Shown here one piece after another: positions 141-8,135 of a stretch of DNA of 8,135 bases (position 1 is the first letter of the stretch; every line of letters begins with the position of its first letter). The translations under genes and the position numbers were made by a program. The notes beneath the pieces were generated by a model. It searched no databases. It was not told where the DNA came from and saw only the letters and a program-made list of their open reading frames with translations. Origin of the DNA: an uncultured Hippea sp. (GTDB taxonomy: Bacteria; Campylobacterota_A; Desulfurellia; JAADFJ01). The stretch is from NCBI GenBank assembly GCA_913009315.1, contig CAJVZA010000070.1, positions 1 through 8,135 on the forward strand. Direction: 5' to 3'.

Positions 141-423
141 ACATTATTTTTATACATACTGTTGAATGTCAAAAGCAGAAGCTATATTGTAATTTTAGTC
201 TTTATTTTATAAGTATAGTTGCCAATATTCATATATTAACAGTATGTTTGTTAACTGCAAAGAATAATTAACTATTGGACGGAGAGATAATCAGGGGCGT
301 TGCGAGTATTTTCTTTCGTCATTGCGGGCGCAACGAAGCAATCTTGTTTTTAGATTATTTTTCGGCTATGTGAACAGATAAGTCGTTATGTCAAATGCAA
401 AGACACAGCCCCGGTGTTCTTTG
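141..423. repeat. long imperfect direct repeat, copy A
   Basis: This stretch, which holds no gene, is repeated in the same orientation at 1631-1918. The best block, 205-294, matches 1718-1807 with about four mismatches over 90 bases. A second conserved block, about 350-416, matches about 1836-1907 with small indels. The copy ends at the 3' end of the BrnT-partner gene (stop at 424-426). Its left limit fades into AT-rich sequence before 141. Bases 48-140 hold nothing I can assign. Copies A and B together bracket the minus-strand TA block. Confidence 0.75.
318..346. repeat. REP-like palindromic element inside repeat A
   Basis: The element carries a compact palindrome, TTGCG-GG-CGCAA (322-333), enclosed by an outer ATTGC (321-325) and GCAAT (338-342). 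Its form, cattgcgggcgcaacgaagcaatc split over 319-343, resembles the dispersed 'cattgcgag...gaagcaatc' repeats found in many environmental bacterial genomes. That resemblance is from memory. Copy B keeps only a decayed version (about 1811-1831), so this element has diverged faster than the rest of the repeat, or was gained by copy A. Confidence 0.45.
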
Positions 424-654
424 TCAGTTGGAGTGCCTATTCAGGCCAATTGATGTTTGAGCCACCTTGATTAAAGATTTCAGGGCTTTGTTTACGGCTT
501 CTTCCGTCGGAAACGCTTTTGCAACTTCAGGTTGAAGTAAGACTATGTTATGTGACTCTTTATACGCTTCGTAATACTTTCCGCGAACACCAACACTAAG
601 GTCTTCTCTTTTATATTCACTTTTCATTTCGTCTGGTTTATTAGTCTTCTTCAT
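424..654 (-). CDS. small partner (putative antitoxin) of BrnT-family toxin
   Basis: This gene encodes a 76-residue protein with a charged N-terminus (MKKTNKPDEMKSEY), a GVRGKYYEAYKES segment (residues 22-34), a hydrophobic VVLLQPEVAKAF-type strand-helix around 37-48, and a helix (EAVNKALKSLIK) at about 52-63. I recognise this type as a small protein often found beside RelE/BrnT-like toxins. It is not a classic BrnA with a ribbon-helix-helix at the C-terminus. It follows the BrnT ORF on the same strand and overlaps its last 14 bases. The start ATG (652-654) has a good purine-rich ribosome site (GAGAGAGG) about 8 nt upstream. An antitoxin role is inferred from the pairing. The toxin-first order is that of brnT-brnA. 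Confidence 0.6.
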   Translation of the reverse strand: MKKTNKPDEMKSEYKREDLSVGVRGKYYEAYKESHNIVLLQPEVAKAFPTEEAVNKALKSLIKVAQTSIGLNRHSN

Positions 655-874
655 ATATTTTCCTCTCTCGTTTTGTCATCAGTCTGGCGCTGATAATCCT
701 CATAGATTTGCCCTTTTCAGCATGAGAAACAATAATTGGTTTACCAATCCTCGATAATCCAAATGTCAAAAACCTACGCTCATTGACGGAATGATCAGGG
801 TCGTCGAATGTAACAGACAATGCATCCCCAAATACTGTAGCAGCTTCCTGAAACGAAATGCCATGTTTTTTCAT
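641..874 (-). CDS. brnT: BrnT-family toxin, N-terminally short
   Basis: The product is a BrnT-type ribonuclease toxin of the RelE-like fold. Visible hallmarks are KHGISFQEA (residues 3-11), ATVFGD, a DPDHS..E.R segment (25-34), and the C-terminal signature RIISARLMTKRERKIYEED (59-77). I chose the ATG at 872-874 because GGGGAGGGG lies just upstream (882-890). The longer TTG start at 950-952 has no ribosome site and lies in a TTGACA that looks like a -35 box. With the ATG start the protein is 77 residues and lacks the usual first strand, an F-x-W-D motif about a dozen residues before KHG. The extended reading also lacks that motif. The gene is therefore either an N-terminally trimmed BrnT or partly decayed. 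The family call is firm; activity is uncertain. Confidence 0.75.
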   Translation of the reverse strand: MKKHGISFQEAATVFGDALSVTFDDPDHSVNERRFLTFGLSRIGKPIIVSHAEKGKSMRIISARLMTKRERKIYEED

Positions 875-928
875 AATACTACCCCTCCCCAGCTCATCTA
901 TAATTACCAGCTCACTGCCGGATGTATC

Positions 929-952
929 GAACGCAATCCATACATCTGTCAA
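929..952 (-). promoter_or_regulatory. possible promoter for brnT module
   Basis: On the minus strand TTGACA occupies 947-952, with a weak -10-like GATACA about 18 nt downstream (923-928). This would start transcription roughly 40 nt before the brnT ATG and leave room for its ribosome site. The -35 is perfect but the -10 is poor, so the call is tentative. Confidence 0.3.
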
Positions 953-1116
953 TGGTTTGTATATCGTTTGAAAATTAATCCAACTTCTTTCAAAACAGCG
1001 TTTAATGTCTTCAAGGGGGATGTTAAAAACCGATTTGCAAACCTCAAACTATAATTGGCTAAAAGAATGACCTATAGTTAGATTTCACTGTGCTGACTTG
1101 TTATCTGTTTTTTTAT

Positions 1117-1350
1117 TTATAGTTTTTCTATATATCTGTTGTAATCATCAACAGTAATTTTTATCTCTTTTAAAATTTCTCTTAACAATGAGCGGGACAG
1201 TATCCTTCCTTTGTGATGAGGCAATGTGGTTGTTCTGCCATCAGGATGTCTGTAAAATGCATGGCTTCCTTTCCGGCGAATCCTATCGAACCCAATTGAG
1301 AACAACAATTTTTCGGCAGTTTTGGCGTCAACAAGCCGCAGCTTGCTCAA
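1117..1350 (-). CDS. hicA: HicA-family mRNA interferase toxin
   Basis: HicA toxins are small double-stranded-RNA-binding-fold ribonucleases that cleave mRNA during translation arrest. This 77-residue copy has the expected order: an N-terminal helix (DAKTAEKLLFSIGF, 8-21), the strand-loop RRKGSHAFYRHPDG (25-38) with the catalytic-type histidine at H30, a TTLPHH strand (41-46), and the C-terminal helix SRSLLREILKEI. The start codon is TTG (1348-1350), which overlaps the TGA of hicB as TTGA. No ATG or separate ribosome site is available, so translation must depend on coupling to hicB. The HicB-first order occurs in many hic operons. The 240-odd bases downstream to the brnT region hold no clear terminator. 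Confidence 0.9.
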   Translation of the reverse strand: MSKLRLVDAKTAEKLLFSIGFDRIRRKGSHAFYRHPDGRTTTLPHHKGRILSRSLLREILKEIKITVDDYNRYIEKL

Positions 1351-1568
1351 CCTGCAACTTCAACTTGCTGAAGTCCAACGAATTCCGGTAAATTGTCCTT
1401 TGCTTCAGTGTCCATTTCCTCCAGGCACAATTCAACTACTTCTTTGAGATTCTTCTGTAGTTCATCTAATGTTTCAGCTTGTGTATGGGCGCCCGGGATG
1501 CCAGGAACAATCCCCACATATAATCCTGTTTCCGGGTCTCGCTCAATATATCCAACTATCTTATGCAT
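1347..1568 (-). CDS. hicB: HicB-family antitoxin
   Basis: The product is a 73-residue antitoxin of the short HicB type that masks HicA and can autoregulate the operon. It shows the partial RNase-H-like fold of the family: IVGYIERDPETGLYVGIVPGIPGAHTQ split across residues 4-30, then the TLDELQKNLKEVVELCLEE helix (33-51). There is no C-terminal DNA-binding domain of the long HicB type visible. The start is the ATG at 1566-1568 because a perfect GGAGGA sits a few bases upstream (1571-1576). A longer in-frame start at 1628 would add hydrophobic residues over the promoter and is rejected. The stop overlaps the TTG of hicA by 4 nt. Confidence 0.9.
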   Translation of the reverse strand: MHKIVGYIERDPETGLYVGIVPGIPGAHTQAETLDELQKNLKEVVELCLEEMDTEAKDNLPEFVGLQQVEVAG

Positions 1569-1598
1569 TAATCCTCCTATCCGATTAGTATATATAAA

Positions 1599-1607
1599 AT
1601 TATAACA
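1599..1607 (-). promoter_or_regulatory. extended -10 promoter element upstream of hicBA
   Basis: On the minus strand the sequence reads TGTTATAAT, a perfect TATAAT (1599-1604) preceded by the TGn extension that lets sigma70 work without a good -35. No convincing -35 lies 16-18 nt further upstream. Transcription would start about 25 nt before the hicB ATG, so the ribosome site GGAGGA is included. It lies just outside the right-hand direct repeat. Confidence 0.5.
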
Positions 1608-1630
1608 AATCCAAATAGCTGAACACATAA

Positions 1631-2461: not shown

Positions 2462-2737
2462 TCACCTAATCAATCTTTTAAGTTTCTTATAAAAGTTTTC
2501 ATGACTGCCGATTACATAGAGGTAGAGAACATCTTCTTTGCATTCATAGGAAATGAGGAAAAGATGAGAGTTGAATGTAAATTTGTAAACCCTTATACCT
2601 TTTAAATCCTCTTTTTTAAGCACGCCTATATTGGGATTTTCCAATATCTTTTGTACCTGATTATCTATTTCAAGCTGTAATCTCGGAGGAAATTTCTTTT
2701 TAAATTTTAGAAAACGATTTGAGGCAATTAACCTCAA
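2462..2737 (-). CDS. RelE/ParE-family toxin
   Basis: This 91-residue basic protein has the RelE-like order: an N-terminal strand (MRLIASNRFLKF), a long helix (KKFPPRLQLEIDNQVQKIL, 14-32), NPNIGVLKKEDLKGIRVYKF (34-53) where RelE/StbE toxins have 'L.G.rvyrf', the strand HLFLISYEC, and VLYLYVIGSHENFYKKLKR at the end (70-88). The closing GSHENFYKKLKR is characteristic of the ribosome-dependent mRNA-cleaving RelE/StbE branch, with a His-Glu..Tyr cluster. The start codon is TTG (2735-2737), overlapping the antitoxin TGA as TTGA, and no better start exists. It is translated second in the operon, by coupling. The exact subfamily is uncertain. Confidence 0.85.
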   Translation of the reverse strand: MRLIASNRFLKFKKKFPPRLQLEIDNQVQKILENPNIGVLKKEDLKGIRVYKFTFNSHLFLISYECKEDVLYLYVIGSHENFYKKLKRLIR

Positions 2738-2967
2738 TGAATAATTCCAAATTCATATTCCTTTCCAATTCCCGCCTCGATCTCTTTTTTTGCCTCAAGC
2801 GTCTTTTTTACAAATGAGAGAGGAAGATCGGGATATTCTTCAGATAACATTCCATCTGTTATATATTTTTTGATTTGCTCCGAGATACTTCTATGTTCCA
2901 TATTTGCCTTTATCTTGATTTTTGTCTCAATCTCATCAGGCAATCTCACGGTTGATACCCCCTTCAT
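2734..2967 (-). CDS. ribbon-helix-helix antitoxin of RelE-type pair
   Basis: The product (77 residues) begins with a ribbon-helix-helix DNA-binding domain: the strand STVRLPDEIE (5-14), helix IETKIKIKANMEH (13-25) and helix SISEQIKKYITDGM (27-40). A charged C-terminal tail (SFVKKTLEAKKEIEAGIGKEYEF, from 51 on) would wrap the toxin. The ATG at 2965-2967 is chosen because a perfect AGGAGGT lies 6-7 nt upstream (about 2972-2978). An upstream start at 3024 would cross the promoter. The antitoxin presumably binds the imperfect inverted repeat around its own promoter. It is TacA/ParD-like in layout, but I cannot name a subfamily. Confidence 0.85.
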   Translation of the reverse strand: MKGVSTVRLPDEIETKIKIKANMEHRSISEQIKKYITDGMLSEEYPDLPLSFVKKTLEAKKEIEAGIGKEYEFGIIH

Positions 2968-2996
2968 TTTTAACCTCCTGTGTTTGTTACAAATAC

Positions 2997-3024
2997 ATAT
3001 TACGCAATATTCGTTATTTGTCAA
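2997..3024 (-). promoter_or_regulatory. promoter and likely operator of RHH-RelE module
   Basis: On the minus strand a perfect TTGACA (3019-3024) stands 16 nt from TAATAT (2997-3002), giving a start about 25 nt before the antitoxin ATG. An imperfect inverted repeat flanks the promoter, gtttgttacaaata (about 2982-2995) against ttatttgtcaaac (3014-3026). Its halves share acaaata/tatttgt, so a dimeric or tetrameric antitoxin bound there would cover both boxes. This is the expected site for autorepression. Confidence 0.7.
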
Positions 3025-3456: not shown

Positions 3457-3738
3457 ATGATAAAAAGTTTCTCGAGTAAGGAAACTGAAAAATTCTTTAA
3501 CCGTCAGTTTTCTCGAAAAATATCACCAAGTATTCATCAAATTGCTCGACGAAAACTTGAAATGCTTGATGCTGCAGGAGCGCTTCAGGATTTACGAATA
3601 CCACCATCGAACCGTTTGGAGAAGCTATCCGGAGATAGAAAAGGCCGATATAGCATCCGCATTAATGTACGTTGGCGCATCTGCTTTGAATGGCCGGACA
3701 ACGATGTTTACAACGTAGAAATTGTTGACTATCATTAG
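3457..3738 (+). CDS. higB: HigB-family toxin (RelE fold)
   Basis: HigB is a ribosome-dependent mRNA endonuclease of the RelE superfamily. The 93-residue protein is canonical throughout: [14 protein letters not shown] at the start, [16 protein letters not shown] (42-57), [12 protein letters not shown] (59-70), VRWRICFEW (71-79) and the closing VEIVDYH (87-93). The ATG at 3457 gives the standard family length. No Shine-Dalgarno sequence precedes it, and the promoter at 3420-3448 places the transcript start at or within two or three bases of the ATG, so the mRNA is probably leaderless. The antitoxin gene follows after 8 nt, in the toxin-first order usual for hig. Confidence 0.95.
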
Positions 3739-3746
3739 GAGATATT

Positions 3747-4049
3747 ATGACTAAACAAAAATTATTACCAATTCATCCGGGCGAGATTCTGATGGAGGAA
3801 TTTCTCAAACCCATGGGGATTAGTCAGTACAGGTTAGCTAAGGATATTAATGTACCCGCTCGCAGGATTAATGAAATTGTGCACGGGAAGCGGGCAATCA
3901 CACCGGATACTGCTTTGAGGCTGTCACGTTATTTTGAAATGTCAGAAAGATTTTGGATCAATCTTCAAGCAAGACATGACCTGGAAGTGATAAAAGACAA
4001 GTTGAAGGATCGCATAGACAAAGAAGTTAATGTATATGCTGTTGGGTAA
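3747..4049 (+). CDS. higA: HigA-family antitoxin, XRE-type helix-turn-helix
   Basis: The 100-residue protein opens with the family signature IHPGEILMEEFLKPMGISQYRLA (9-31). It continues with a helix-turn-helix (about 24-47, including INVPARRINEIVHGKRAIT), then the helix TALRLSRYFEMSERFWINLQARHDLE (55-80). This is the HigA/VapI group of XRE regulators. It neutralises HigB and should repress the operon through the inverted repeats over the higB promoter. The ATG has a good aggag ribosome site (3737-3741), unlike higB, so antitoxin synthesis should be favoured. Confidence 0.95.
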   Translation: MTKQKLLPIHPGEILMEEFLKPMGISQYRLAKDINVPARRINEIVHGKRAITPDTALRLSRYFEMSERFWINLQARHDLEVIKDKLKDRIDKEVNVYAVG

Positions 4050-4313: not shown

Positions 4314-5081
4314 ATGAGGATTCTCGTTTATCTTATTTCGGACAGTCATATAACAATAAAGCAAAGCTACAACAATATTCTTCAGGGATTGATATATCAG
4401 TTTTTAGACCGGATCGATGCAGCGTGGCTTCATAAAAATGGCTTTGAATCCGGCAGCAGAAAATTTAAGCTTTTTGTTTTCTCGGGAATCAGGGAAAGAG
4501 GAGCAGTCGATCGAAAAACCCAAACCTTCAAATTTTCCAATAAAATAAGTTTTTATCTGTCATCTCCGGTCGATTGGATTATGACTCAATTTGCAGGCAA
4601 TATTATTCGATCAAGAAATTTTAATTTCGGCGGTAATACGGTTTCGGTCGAATCGATCAGTGTCATGAAAGATCAGGCGATAGATAACGACTCAATAATC
4701 GTCCGGGCACTAACTCCCATTGAAGTACATTCAACTTTGATAAAACCTGACGGGAAAAAACTGACCTATTACTATAGTCCGCTTGAGAATGAATTCGGCA
4801 GACTCATAAATGATAATCTGATGAAAAAGTGGCAGGCGTTTTACAAAAAAGATGCTCCGGGCGATATTTTGATAAAACCGCTTTTTTCAGGCGGCAGAAA
4901 TGAACGAATCAGATATTTTGTCAATGGCGACAGAAAAACCGTTATAAAAGGATGGGTCGGAAAATATGAGCTTTCAGGAAGTATGGAGCTGCTCAAATTT
5001 GCGCTTGATGTGGGGCTGGGAAGTCGAGGCAGCCAAGGCTTCGGCATGATAGAGATGGCAGCCAATTGGAGAAATCAATGA
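4314..5081 (+). CDS. cas6: CRISPR endoribonuclease Cas6
   Basis: Cas6 cuts the CRISPR repeat in precursor RNA to release crRNAs for Cascade-type complexes. The 255-residue protein matches the family in length and landmarks: an N-terminal strand (MRILVYLIS), YNNILQGLIYQFL (19-31), WLHKNGF (38-44) with H40 in the place of the family's catalytic histidine, FKLFVFSGI (51-59), a 'VRALTPIEV' strand about 129-137, and the C-terminal glycine-rich RNA-binding loop GLGSRGSQGFGMIE (about 234-247). The ATG follows a run of seven G residues (4305-4311). The TGA overlaps the next gene's ATG (ATGA). The gene seems intact. No array or other intact cas gene is in view. The C-terminal third is repeated at 7921-8091. 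Confidence 0.93.
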   Translation: MRILVYLISDSHITIKQSYNNILQGLIYQFLDRIDAAWLHKNGFESGSRKFKLFVFSGIRERGAVDRKTQTFKFSNKISFYLSSPVDWIMTQFAGNIIRSRNFNFGGNTVSVESISVMKDQAIDNDSIIVRALTPIEVHSTLIKPDGKKLTYYYSPLENEFGRLINDNLMKKWQAFYKKDAPGDILIKPLFSGGRNERIRYFVNGDRKTVIKGWVGKYELSGSMELLKFALDVGLGSRGSQGFGMIEMAANWRNQ

Positions 5082-5125
5082 ATATTAAAATTACACCGAA
5101 AATCATCAAATCCATATGCAATAAG
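4911..5125 (+). repeat. cas6-tail/SWIM-head direct repeat, copy 1
   Basis: This segment matches 7921-8135 without gaps at a constant offset of 3010 bases. By my count about 15 of 215 positions differ (about 93% identity). The match starts sharply at cas6 codon 200 and is still running at the window edge, so the true repeat is longer. Half of the differences fall in the glycine-rich loop (SRGSQG versus SRNSAG). Confidence 0.9.
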
Positions 5126-6715
5126 GTAGTGATATCGAGAGGCAAGAAGATTATCAATACTTATCTTGTTGAAAATATAACAAATTTCAGCGTTGACGAC
5201 AACACAATAAGCGCCTCGATTGACGATATTCTCAACTTTGACGTAAAAATGGATTTATCGGACATGAGCTGCAGCTGCTCATGCAATTACAGCAAAGTCG
5301 GGATATGCAAGCACATAGCGGCACTGCTTTATTTTGCTATGGAGAAGGGAACAAATTTTAAAGGTTCGGAAAAGCAGGATAGTTCTCTCGACGAATTAAA
5401 ATCCGCTATAAACAGTGCGGATAAAGCTCGTCTGGAGCTGTTCATTATCAATGAAACAGCCATAGATGAGGATATCCGAAATAGAGCGCTGAACTTTTTT
5501 ATGGCAAAAAAGCACAAACGTACAGTCGCTGTTTATAAAAAAGAGATGAACAGCCTTTTGAAACACCTCATACGCGACTATTATATACCCGTATCGAAAT
5601 CAGGCGAATTGACAGCCTTCATTAACAACATTGAACTGATGGCAAAGCAAGGCGACATCGAAGAAGCAATCAAAAATTACAGGGCTGTTTTTGAGGTTTT
5701 GGAAAACAAATTGAGAACGCTTGATGATTCTTACGGAATTATTCAGGATGCGATTAGGGATGCGTTGGATAAATATATTGAGTATTCCGACAAATTTTAT
5801 ACAGAGCAAAAGGATAGACGCGGCATAATTGAATATCTGTGGAAACAATTTCTGAAAAATTCCGATATATGCCATTACTACACCGAGGCGATAAAGCAGT
5901 TCTGCGGAAGTGAAGAAGACTGGAAGTGCTACCGTGACATCATTGCAAAAGAAATCTCATCGCGAGACGACAAAGATAGTTTTATGTTCCAAACAATCGT
6001 AGAAGAATATATCGATATACTTATTCAACTGAAAAATGATGATGAATTGAAAAAGGCGTTTGATGAATTCTTAAGTTTAAACGGCTCCATCGCTCATAAA
6101 AAGATCGATTATTTTTGGTCAATCGGCAAATTTGAGGATGCCATCAAGACATTTGAGGACAACATCAACCGCCTGCATTATGAAGATGTCGAACAAATCA
6201 GAACCAAAATATCCGATTATCTCTACAAAAATAACAAAGGGAGACACCTAAACAATCTTATCGCCCTGTTTAAGCTTTCGCCCTCATACGATCTGTATGA
6301 ACAGATTGAAAAAAGCAGCGGAGATTTTTGGGTGAATATCAGGGACAAACTGTATGAGCAAATCAAAAACTCCCCTGAACTCATTGATTCATTTATAAAA
6401 AAAGGGCGAATGAGAGAAGCGTTTGATAAATTAGCGGAGATTGACAAAACCAATCTGTATGACAAATATCTTGAAATTTTGTCGCCGCTATTTCCTGAAG
6501 AGTATTTTGATTACTACAAAAATTCGATAATGAGGGATTACAAAAGTGCTCAGTATCCCGACCGTAATCTATACCGCACAACATTAAGAAAAATCATAAA
6601 TCTCAGTATAATCGTCGGAGCAGAAGATAAATATGCCGAATTTTTGGTGCAGCTTAGAGAAGAAAATAAGCAGCGGCCTTCGTTTTTAGATGAGATGGGG
6701 AAGATTTTAGAATGA
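5078..6715 (+). CDS. SWIM zinc-finger protein coupled to Cas6
   Basis: The product is a 545-residue protein of the SWIM zinc-finger family. The SWIM motif CxCx(n)CxH is visible as C65-S-C67-S-C69 ... C77-K-H79, followed by the usual helix IAALLYFAMEKG. SWIM domains bind nucleic acid or protein partners. The remaining 450 residues are helix-rich and charged, with TPR/HEAT-like helical pairs. The end, AEFLVQLREENKQRPSFLDEM (about 519-539), resembles the closing segment of other long SWIM proteins. No nuclease or ATPase motif is seen. The start is the ATG at 5078, in an ATGA overlap with cas6 and preceded by GGAGAA (5068-5073); a TTG four codons upstream lies on that ribosome site. Coupling to cas6 suggests a role in crRNA processing, complex assembly or regulation, which is inference. 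Confidence 0.88.
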   Translation: MNIKITPKIIKSICNKVVISRGKKIINTYLVENITNFSVDDNTISASIDDILNFDVKMDLSDMSCSCSCNYSKVGICKHIAALLYFAMEKGTNFKGSEKQDSSLDELKSAINSADKARLELFIINETAIDEDIRNRALNFFMAKKHKRTVAVYKKEMNSLLKHLIRDYYIPVSKSGELTAFINNIELMAKQGDIEEAIKNYRAVFEVLENKLRTLDDSYGIIQDAIRDALDKYIEYSDKFYTEQKDRRGIIEYLWKQFLKNSDICHYYTEAIKQFCGSEEDWKCYRDIIAKEISSRDDKDSFMFQTIVEEYIDILIQLKNDDELKKAFDEFLSLNGSIAHKKIDYFWSIGKFEDAIKTFEDNINRLHYEDVEQIRTKISDYLYKNNKGRHLNNLIALFKLSPSYDLYEQIEKSSGDFWVNIRDKLYEQIKNSPELIDSFIKKGRMREAFDKLAEIDKTNLYDKYLEILSPLFPEEYFDYYKNSIMRDYKSAQYPDRNLYRTTLRKIINLSIIVGAEDKYAEFLVQLREENKQRPSFLDEMGKILE

Positions 6716-6748
6716 GCTGAGATATTAGAGCGATTTTGAGGGGGCATT

Positions 6749-6856
6749 ATGATTGAAGCGTTACATGAGATAGGTTCACAGCACTATTTTACTTTAACAG
6801 GAAATCCATTTGTGCATGGAGGTATGAAGAGTTATTTAACATTTTTAAAAAAATGA
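6749..6856 (+). pseudogene. remnant of Cas8-type large subunit, N-terminal piece
   Basis: A strong ribosome site (GAGGGGG, 6738-6744) leads to ATG 6749 and a 35-residue ORF beginning MIEALHEIG. This is how the TM1802/Csh1 (Cas8b) large subunits start, and it is close to the MIEALLDI start at 7663. It continues with FTLTGNPFVHGGMKSYLTFL (14-33), whose GNPFVxxG is the signature found near the start of Cst1-type Cas8 proteins, then stops at TGA (6854-6856). Full Cas8 proteins have 400-700 residues, so this is a fragment or a join of two. The position, 33 nt after the SWIM gene, suggests the operon once continued cas6-SWIM-cas8. Confidence 0.5.
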
Positions 6857-7071
6857 CCGGTTTTAAGCTTTATGGAGCTCAAGAAAGATTGTCCAAAATA
6901 TATTCAGAGGGGAATAATATGTTGTTGAAAGCTCTAAGCGGGGCAGGGAAAATCCGAGCCTTTGTTCTCCCTTTTGTTTTTTTGATGAAGCAGAGAATTT
7001 TAGGAAAAGAGGTCGATATGAATTTGCATGCAAATTTTTTGAAAAATCTACTCAAAAATTACAAAAATTGA
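6853..7071 (+). pseudogene. unrecognised 72-residue ORF, possible cas8 remnant
   Basis: This ORF starts at an ATGA overlapping the stop of the preceding remnant and encodes a basic protein with GAQERLSKIYSEGNNMLLKAL (8-28), a hydrophobic FVLPFVFLM segment and a helix ending NFLKNLLKNYKN. I do not recognise a family. The pattern of helix, LLKAL and a C-terminal Lys/Asn-rich helix could come from the C-terminal helical part of a Cas8 protein left by internal deletion. Only the position next to the MIEAL fragment supports this. It may also be non-coding. Confidence 0.25.
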
Positions 7072-7141: not shown

Positions 7142-7348
7142 ATGGAACGACGCTTTACACTTGAATATTGGATAGATGAAGGATGGTATGTTGGCAGGCT
7201 AAAAGAAGTGCCGGGGGTATTCAGCCAGGGAGAAACGATTGAGGAATTAGAAGAGAATATAAAGGAAGCCTACCATCTTATTATGGCCGAAGAAGAAATT
7301 TCGCCACCCCATAAGGCTTACCGGAAAGAGTTGGAAATACAGGTGTGA
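7142..7348 (+). CDS. hicB: HicB-family antitoxin (second hic module)
   Basis: This 68-residue protein is a short HicB: RFTLEYWIDEGWYVGRLKE (4-22), VPGVFSQGETIEELEENIKEAYHLIMAEEE (23-52). It is only distantly similar to the copy at 1347-1568: both share a 'GxYVGxxxxxPG' strand and a 'QxETxxELxxNxKE' helix. The ATG has a perfect AGGAGG at 7129-7134. The stop TGA overlaps the GTG start of the toxin gene. It lies between cas8-like remnants, so the module appears to have been inserted into, or retained within, the cas operon. Confidence 0.9.
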   Translation: MERRFTLEYWIDEGWYVGRLKEVPGVFSQGETIEELEENIKEAYHLIMAEEEISPPHKAYRKELEIQV

Positions 7349-7524
7349 AAAGGAAAGAATTTATCCGAGAGTTAATAAAAGCAGGTTGTTATATAAAACG
7401 GCATGGAACAAACCATGACATATATATGAATCCAAGAACCGGTAGAAAAGCTCCTATTCCAAGACATACAGAGGTTAAAGAAAGTCTTTGTGAATTGATA
7501 AGAAAACAGTTAGGATTGAAATAA
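7345..7524 (+). CDS. hicA: HicA-family toxin (second hic module), 59 residues
   Basis: The product is a compact HicA: helix KRKEFIRELIKAG (2-14), then CYIKRHGTNHDIYMNP (15-30) with H24 in the place of the GSH catalytic histidine, the APIPRH strand (36-41) and the helix VKESLCELIRKQLGL. The GTG start (7345-7347) overlaps the hicB stop as GTGA, and no ATG is available until M28. This is the same coupled, weak-start design as the first hicA. It is shorter than the first copy (77 residues) but has all the family's core elements. It is of the 'NHDIY..P.TG...PIPRH' subtype common in other bacteria. Confidence 0.88.
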   Translation: MKRKEFIRELIKAGCYIKRHGTNHDIYMNPRTGRKAPIPRHTEVKESLCELIRKQLGLK

Positions 7525-7662
7525 ACGTGTCTATTTATCGCAAGTTGCTACGTTAGATTTGTTGCCATTTTTAAGTGGGAATAAGGATTTTAATTGATGA
7601 ATTGCGCAGATTTATTGATTGTGGTTGGGATAATATTGAGTGACAAGATTCAAGGGGGAATT

Positions 7663-8091
7663 ATGATTGAGGCATTACTTGATATAAGAGATATCCAACA
7701 GAAAAACGACTTTCTTGATGAATTTGCTGAAAATATTGGAGAGAAAAATAGACATGTATTGAAGATTAATTTTGATATTAATGATAAAGATAATGTCTCC
7801 TATTCCGGCGTTGGATATGAAGAATTTTCTCAACCCAAAAAGCTAAAATATCTTTATAAAGGCGTAAAGGGAAACGAATCCAACTATACTCCCATAGCCA
7901 AGATAACCTATGATATCAAAAGATATTTTGTCAATGGCGACAGAAAAACCGTTATAAAAGGATGGGTCGGAAAATACGAGCTTTCAGGAAGTATGGAGCT
8001 GCTCAAATTTGCGCTTGATGTCGGGCTCGGAAGTCGAAACAGCGCTGGTTTCGGAATGATAGAGATGGCGGCTAATCGGAGAAATCAATGA
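7663..8091 (+). pseudogene. in-frame chimera: Cas8b/Csh1 N-terminus joined to Cas6 C-terminus
   Basis: ATG 7663 follows AAGGGGG (7650-7656) and opens a 142-residue ORF. Residues 1-86 resemble the N-terminus of TM1802/Csh1-type Cas8b: MIEALLDI, VLKINFDI (32-39), YSGVGYEEF (47-55), LKYLYKGVKG (61-70) and YTPIAKIT (75-82), where the family has 'YLY..g...TD.TP.akIT'. From R87 (7921) onward the DNA and protein match Cas6 codon 200 to the end, including GLGSRNSAGFGMIE. The Cas6 part lacks the N-terminal fold and H40, so it cannot be a normal nuclease. A deletion from the middle of cas8b to late cas6, in frame, explains it. An upstream in-frame ATG at 7594 lacks a good site. The ORF is still coupled by ATGA to the next SWIM gene. 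Confidence 0.75.
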
Positions 8092-8135
8092 ATATTAAGA
8101 TCACACCGAAAATCATCAAATCCATATGCAATAAG
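7921..8135 (+). repeat. cas6-tail/SWIM-head direct repeat, copy 2
   Basis: This copy matches 4911-5125 with about 15 mismatches and no gaps, ending only because the window ends. Many differences are synonymous or confined to the glycine-rich loop. It includes the intact GGAGAA ribosome site and the ATGA coupling. Confidence 0.9.
8088..8135 (+). CDS. second SWIM zinc-finger protein (5' end only)
   Basis: The 16 codons before the window edge encode the same residues as the start of the first SWIM protein (MNIKITPKIIKSICNK) with two silent base changes. The ATG overlaps the stop of the Cas8b-Cas6 chimera, and GGAGAA lies upstream as in copy 1. Whether the gene is full length cannot be seen. The zinc-finger motif would begin about 145 bases beyond the window. 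Confidence 0.8.
   Translation, partial: MNIKITPKIIKSICNK

Follow-up and report, generated by a model that had tools for sequence, protein, structure and literature searches.

Decaying CRISPR loci hold fusion pseudogenes, truncated cas genes, frame-broken neighbours and missing partners. The type I-B operon, which is intact in the same-class relative G008, has the order cas6-cas8b-cas7-cas5-cas3. A full-length Cas8b (TM1802 family) is about 600 residues long with a central zinc-finger region. A functional type I-B system comprises Cas3, Cas7, Cas5, Cas8b and a CRISPR array. The Cas6 endoribonuclease (PF01881/TIGR01877) is built from two RRM domains with a glycine loop before the last strand (PMC3150331), and the catalytic histidines of the Cas6 proteins studied lie in the N-terminal RAMP domain, or RRM (PMC3652601).

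We describe here an ORF in which the start of a cas8b gene is joined in frame to the end of a cas6 gene. The window (the whole stretch of DNA analyzed, 8135 nt) is an entire contig of a genome bin of 1.74 Mb in 96 contigs that is 87.6% complete. The locus shares with the G008 operon the source genes of both halves of the fusion, the ribosome site and the gene order. It differs from that operon in its two joined gene ends, in an extra SWIM gene between cas6 and cas8b, and in that effector and adaptation genes were not found in the bin. Compared with Cas6, the fusion has the C-terminal 56 residues with the glycine-rich loop region but lacks the N-terminal catalytic RRM and, it appears, the first half of the C-terminal RRM. 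The fusion pseudogenes of decaying loci are similar in their partial genes, broken neighbours and absent partners, whereas the join here is in frame.

Anatomy of the fusion ORF

The ORF at 7663-8091 is open as assembled and encodes 142 amino acids. Its residues 1-89 match the PF09484 (Cas_TM1802) profile (E 8e-14, 51.8 bits against a cut-off of 25.1), but the match covers only positions 1-96 of the 602 in the profile, well short of a full-length Cas8b. Residues 60-135 match PF01881 (Cas_Cas6_C) in a Pfam profile search (E 6e-16), and the score against TIGR01877 is below the cut-off of that family (44.8 versus 58.65 bits). The position of the join is fixed by DNA comparison at R87 (codon 87, base 7921): positions 7921-8135 are a direct repeat of 4911-5125 with 93% identity, and the sequence before 7921 is unrelated to the corresponding part of the intact cas6 upstream (copy A). 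Since real Cas6 identity begins at residue 87, the PF01881 match, which starts at residue 60, overruns into the Cas8b part. On the other side of the join, the alignment to the intact Cas8b of G008 reaches residue 82 (...TPTSKITTIDKTFKNK in G008), and the fusion reads ...TPIAKITYDIK followed, across the join, by RYFVNG. The features of the locus, in order along the window, are as follows.

4314-5081, + strand: intact cas6 (copy A), from which the Cas6 part of the fusion derives or to which it is a sister; TIGR01877, E 1e-34; 76% to the congener G002, dN/dS 0.11
5078-6715, + strand: 545-aa gene with a SWIM domain, overlapping cas6 by ATGA; PF04434; 77% to its counterpart in G002, where the cas6-SWIM order is the same, dN/dS 0.20
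6739-6775, + strand: truncated cas8b of copy A, a second cas8b leader plus the first 7-9 codons (MIEALHEIG), then unrelated sequence; 34-nt repeat, 85% to 7653-7686, and translation
7142-7524, + strand: HicB-like plus HicA toxin-antitoxin pair between the two broken cas8b starts; PF07927 (HicA) above cut-off, UPF0150 and HicB_lk_antitox weak and below the Pfam cut-off
7652-7662, + strand: cas8b 5' end, ribosome-binding site with its spacer, AAGGGGGAATT ahead of the ATG; the leader recurs at 6739-6749 (repeat family D5)
7663-7920, + strand: Cas8b (TM1802 family) N-terminus, codons 1-86; PF09484; 41% identity to G008 Cas8b over residues 1-82
7921-8091, + strand: last 56 codons of Cas6 with the stop, repeating 4911-5081; direct repeat D1, alignment and codon differences
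8088-8135, + strand: first 16 codons of a second SWIM gene, up to where the contig stops; differs from 5078-5125 at 2 positions, both synonymous

The ORF is preceded by the ribosome site AAGGGGGAATTATG and ends in an ATGA overlap into the start of the second SWIM gene. The contig stops at 8135, 215 nt past the join, and the second SWIM gene is therefore visible only as its first 16 codons. The first-pass annotation of this DNA had described an in-frame chimera of a Cas8b N-terminus and a Cas6 C-terminus, with cas6 homology setting in abruptly at R87, the frame kept and a ribosome site of its own, and this description is borne out by the two profile matches, the start of the DNA repeat and the site itself. 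It had further proposed ATGA coupling to a second SWIM gene; the overlap is present, but the gene it leads into is seen only in those 16 codons. A promoter-like match at 7640-7667 was discarded: it runs over the start codon, and shuffled sequence yields matches of this kind at least as often.

Two tandem RRM/RAMP domains are not present in the fusion, which keeps the last 56 of 255 Cas6 residues. Residues 1-199 are absent, among them H40, the candidate N-terminal catalytic histidine of the intact copy, and by comparison with the described architecture the C-terminal RRM would also be short of its opening strand and helix. The glycine-rich motif retains GLGSRNSAGFGM, with a change from Q to A at Q241, a position at which the five aligned Cas6 proteins of the class do not vary. 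The suggestion that the Cas6 glycine-rich loop is retained without the catalytic half is thus correct as to the absent catalytic domain and most of the motif, but not as to this residue. Predicted structures have a pLDDT of about 35 for the fusion and likewise for the intact Cas6; given that the intact protein also scores very low, the prediction is uninformative on the fusion.

No match spanning both halves was found in 61 genomes, nor in 25 genomes of the class (a search of the phylum covered the same 25), and scans of genome and viral contig collections, with patterns that reach only close relatives, did not return the fusion. Within the genomes and collections covered, a conserved fusion was therefore rejected. 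A viral origin was rejected as well: phage records gave no DNA match, and viral contigs contained no relative of Cas6. Other DNA copies of the region are limited to copy A, the leader at 6739 and the cas6 of G002.

A probable broken, partly duplicated type I-B operon

The second cas8b leader and start, AGGGGGCATTATGATTGAAGCGTTACATGAGATA, lie directly after the stop of the first SWIM gene. Both cas8b copies on the contig are broken. In the relatives G006, G008 and G013 cas6 is followed by cas8b, and in G008 the pair runs on into the rest of a type I-B operon (the later genes being named from their sequence). The position of the cas8b start right after SWIM, taken with this order in the relatives, suggests that the ancestral order was cas6-SWIM-cas8b, and the region is most likely a broken, partly duplicated type I-B operon. 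The search for uninterrupted cas8b and cas6 in related genomes that the first-pass annotation had proposed thus gave a positive answer, with cas8b intact in G008 and frame-broken in G006, where 7 in-frame stops fall across the matched stretch. In the congener G002, the cas6-SWIM pair is on a contig that ends inside SWIM, and no TM1802/Cas8b match was found in that genome. The states of G002 and G006 indicate that loss or decay of the operon occurs in the class.

The search for partner genes in the rest of the bin covered Cas8b, one Cas7 family (PF05107), Cas1 and Cas3-HD. No other TM1802/Cas8b was found, and neither PF05107 nor Cas1 gave a match. A Cas3-HD search returned two weak matches that are not cas-like in character, one over the cut-off (C15) and one sub-threshold in a 287-aa frame (C1). 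The protein with the C15 match is long and by its sequence resembles a conjugation coupling protein, and we rejected it as a Cas3. Because the bin is incomplete (87.6%) and fragmented (96 contigs), intact partner genes could be missing from it.

The intact cas6 and the 545-aa SWIM gene form a conserved, ATGA-overlapping pair in two species of the genus (window 4314-6715; L027 888-3265), and the dN/dS values against G002 (0.11 for cas6 and 0.20 for SWIM) indicate purifying selection on both. The SWIM gene was found in none of the 61 genomes searched beyond these two species, and a literature search for SWIM zinc fingers with CRISPR and cas6 returned a single item, which concerns Cas11b. The SWIM gene is a possible accessory CRISPR gene, and the conserved cas6-SWIM pair is a more interesting element than the fusion beside it. 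G002 also has a Cas1 contig with RAMP-like genes (L045, G002:C12), a type III-B locus as we read its sequence, and two further Cas1 genes, one of them in a 709-aa frame. A candidate second SWIM gene in the type III operon of G002 was rejected, as the protein, judged from its sequence, reads as a Cmr6-like RAMP that has no SWIM motif.

Open frames without family matches follow the truncated cas8b start at window 6776-7068 (for example 6853-7068). At least five toxin-antitoxin-like pairs lie within 8 kb (BrnT with a partner, HicAB, ParE/ParD-like, HigB with an HTH partner, and HicBA), with such pairs at window 424-1628, 2462-3024, 3457-4049 and 7142-7524, and this island surrounds the broken cas genes. 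An element of ~250 nt, repeated at window 156-416 and 1669-1907 (77-87%), lies on both sides of a BrnT gene and a HicA/HicB pair. Partial copies are present at 29 sites here and at 14 in the congener G001, and the element resembles a small mobile or interspersed repeat that is non-coding.

Origin of the join and competing explanations

The copy of the Cas6 tail differs from cas6-A at 15 of 215 sites. These differences are unevenly spread, with 1 in the first 101 nt of the copied tract and 12 in the next 60 nt (permutation p about 0.009); the tract at the join includes an exact 56-nt match to copy A, and the last 33 nt of the contig equal copy A exactly. Against G002, divergence is ordinary in both tracts (21-22 of 100 and 16-17 of 60), and the clustering is therefore not accounted for by constraint. 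Near-identity over the first 101 nt followed by clear divergence suggests instead gene conversion from cas6-A, or a join that copied from it. A further check proposed at the outset, dN/dS in the chimera, gives 0.18 between the two Cas6 tails; the value is based on 56 codons and for the most part records divergence that predates the fusion. Polarised with G002, the changes private to the fused copy are Q241A and W252R, with cas6-A changed at N239. Small in number, the changes at Q241 and W252 are weak evidence that constraint on the fused copy may be relaxed.

Most likely, the ORF is a scar that recombination or deletion left in a type I-B operon which is partly duplicated and in decay; a simple deletion scar was also among the options of the first-pass annotation. 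The lack of long homology at the join points to illegitimate recombination or deletion, and as a random join is in frame one third of the time, the in-frame state is no evidence of use. The ancestral type I-B operon would have run cas6-SWIM-cas8b and onward, with a second, diverged cas6-SWIM copy nearby. A rearrangement may then have deleted codons 1-199 of the second cas6 along with the bulk of cas8b, so that codon 86 of cas8b came to stand directly before what corresponds to codon 200 of cas6; this join would have involved little or no homology and kept the frame by chance. The join itself, or a later gene conversion, would have copied from the upstream cas6-A and then met the older, diverged second copy. 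The product, if made, would be a non-catalytic fragment. Against the scar reading stand the intact frame, start site and stop and the dN/dS of 0.18 between the Cas6 tails, as well as the incomplete state of the bin and the restriction of the Cas7 search to one family.

An assembly artefact, in which the assembler or chimeric library molecules near the contig end made the join or paired a cas8b arm with a diverged cas6 tail, is unlikely, though several features of the contig fit it. The contig stops 215 nt past the join and its final 33 nt equal copy A, the 56-nt exact match lies at the join, and a continuation of the second SWIM gene was found on none of the contigs of the bin; the G002 MAG is a low-coverage (1.75x) short-read NODE assembly, and the data behind this contig may be similar. 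A k-mer misjoin, however, needs sequence common to its parents, and cas8b and cas6 share almost none, as judged from the Cas8b of relatives and the sequence before 7921. There is no N gap at the join, and a misjoin inside the 56-nt tract would only swap tails and leave the cas8b/cas6 boundary in the reads. The 15 differing sites likewise indicate that the tail is not a simple misplaced copy of copy A.

Compatible with the scar reading, though improbable as an explanation of the ORF, is a leader role, with translational coupling to the SWIM gene that follows; the first-pass annotation had likewise raised a role in SWIM translation alone. The ATGA overlap that favours this idea is like that of the intact cas6-SWIM pairs here and in G002, but it is inherited from cas6 and needs no new biology; the SWIM start also has its own upstream GGAG, and the contig ends inside the second SWIM gene after 16 codons.

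It is very unlikely that the ORF encodes a small working protein which has kept the glycine-rich loop of Cas6, binds repeats or crRNA and modulates Cas6-A. The open frame, the native cas8b ribosome site and the largely kept glycine-rich motif would suit such a protein, but it would lack the N-terminal RRM as well as the opening strand and helix of the C-terminal one, it has lost Q241, no homologue was found in the genomes and contig collections searched, and no intact interference genes were found for it to modulate. The earlier proposal of a new small RNA-binding protein competing for crRNA repeats is without support, as no relative has the fusion, the catalytic domain is absent, half an RRM is missing and an invariant residue of the glycine motif is changed. 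Equally remote is the idea that an in-frame Cas8b-Cas6 mini-protein arose recently, uses its Cas6 tail to bind crRNA repeats or a Cas partner, and dampens or redirects the remaining Cas6 and SWIM products. A function of the fusion is unsupported.

Were the fusion functional, it would show a new way in which small proteins that modulate CRISPR can arise, but no evidence points there. As a scar, the ORF shows how partly duplicated cas operons break into open chimeric frames, and automated annotation may label such frames Cas6 or Cas8b.
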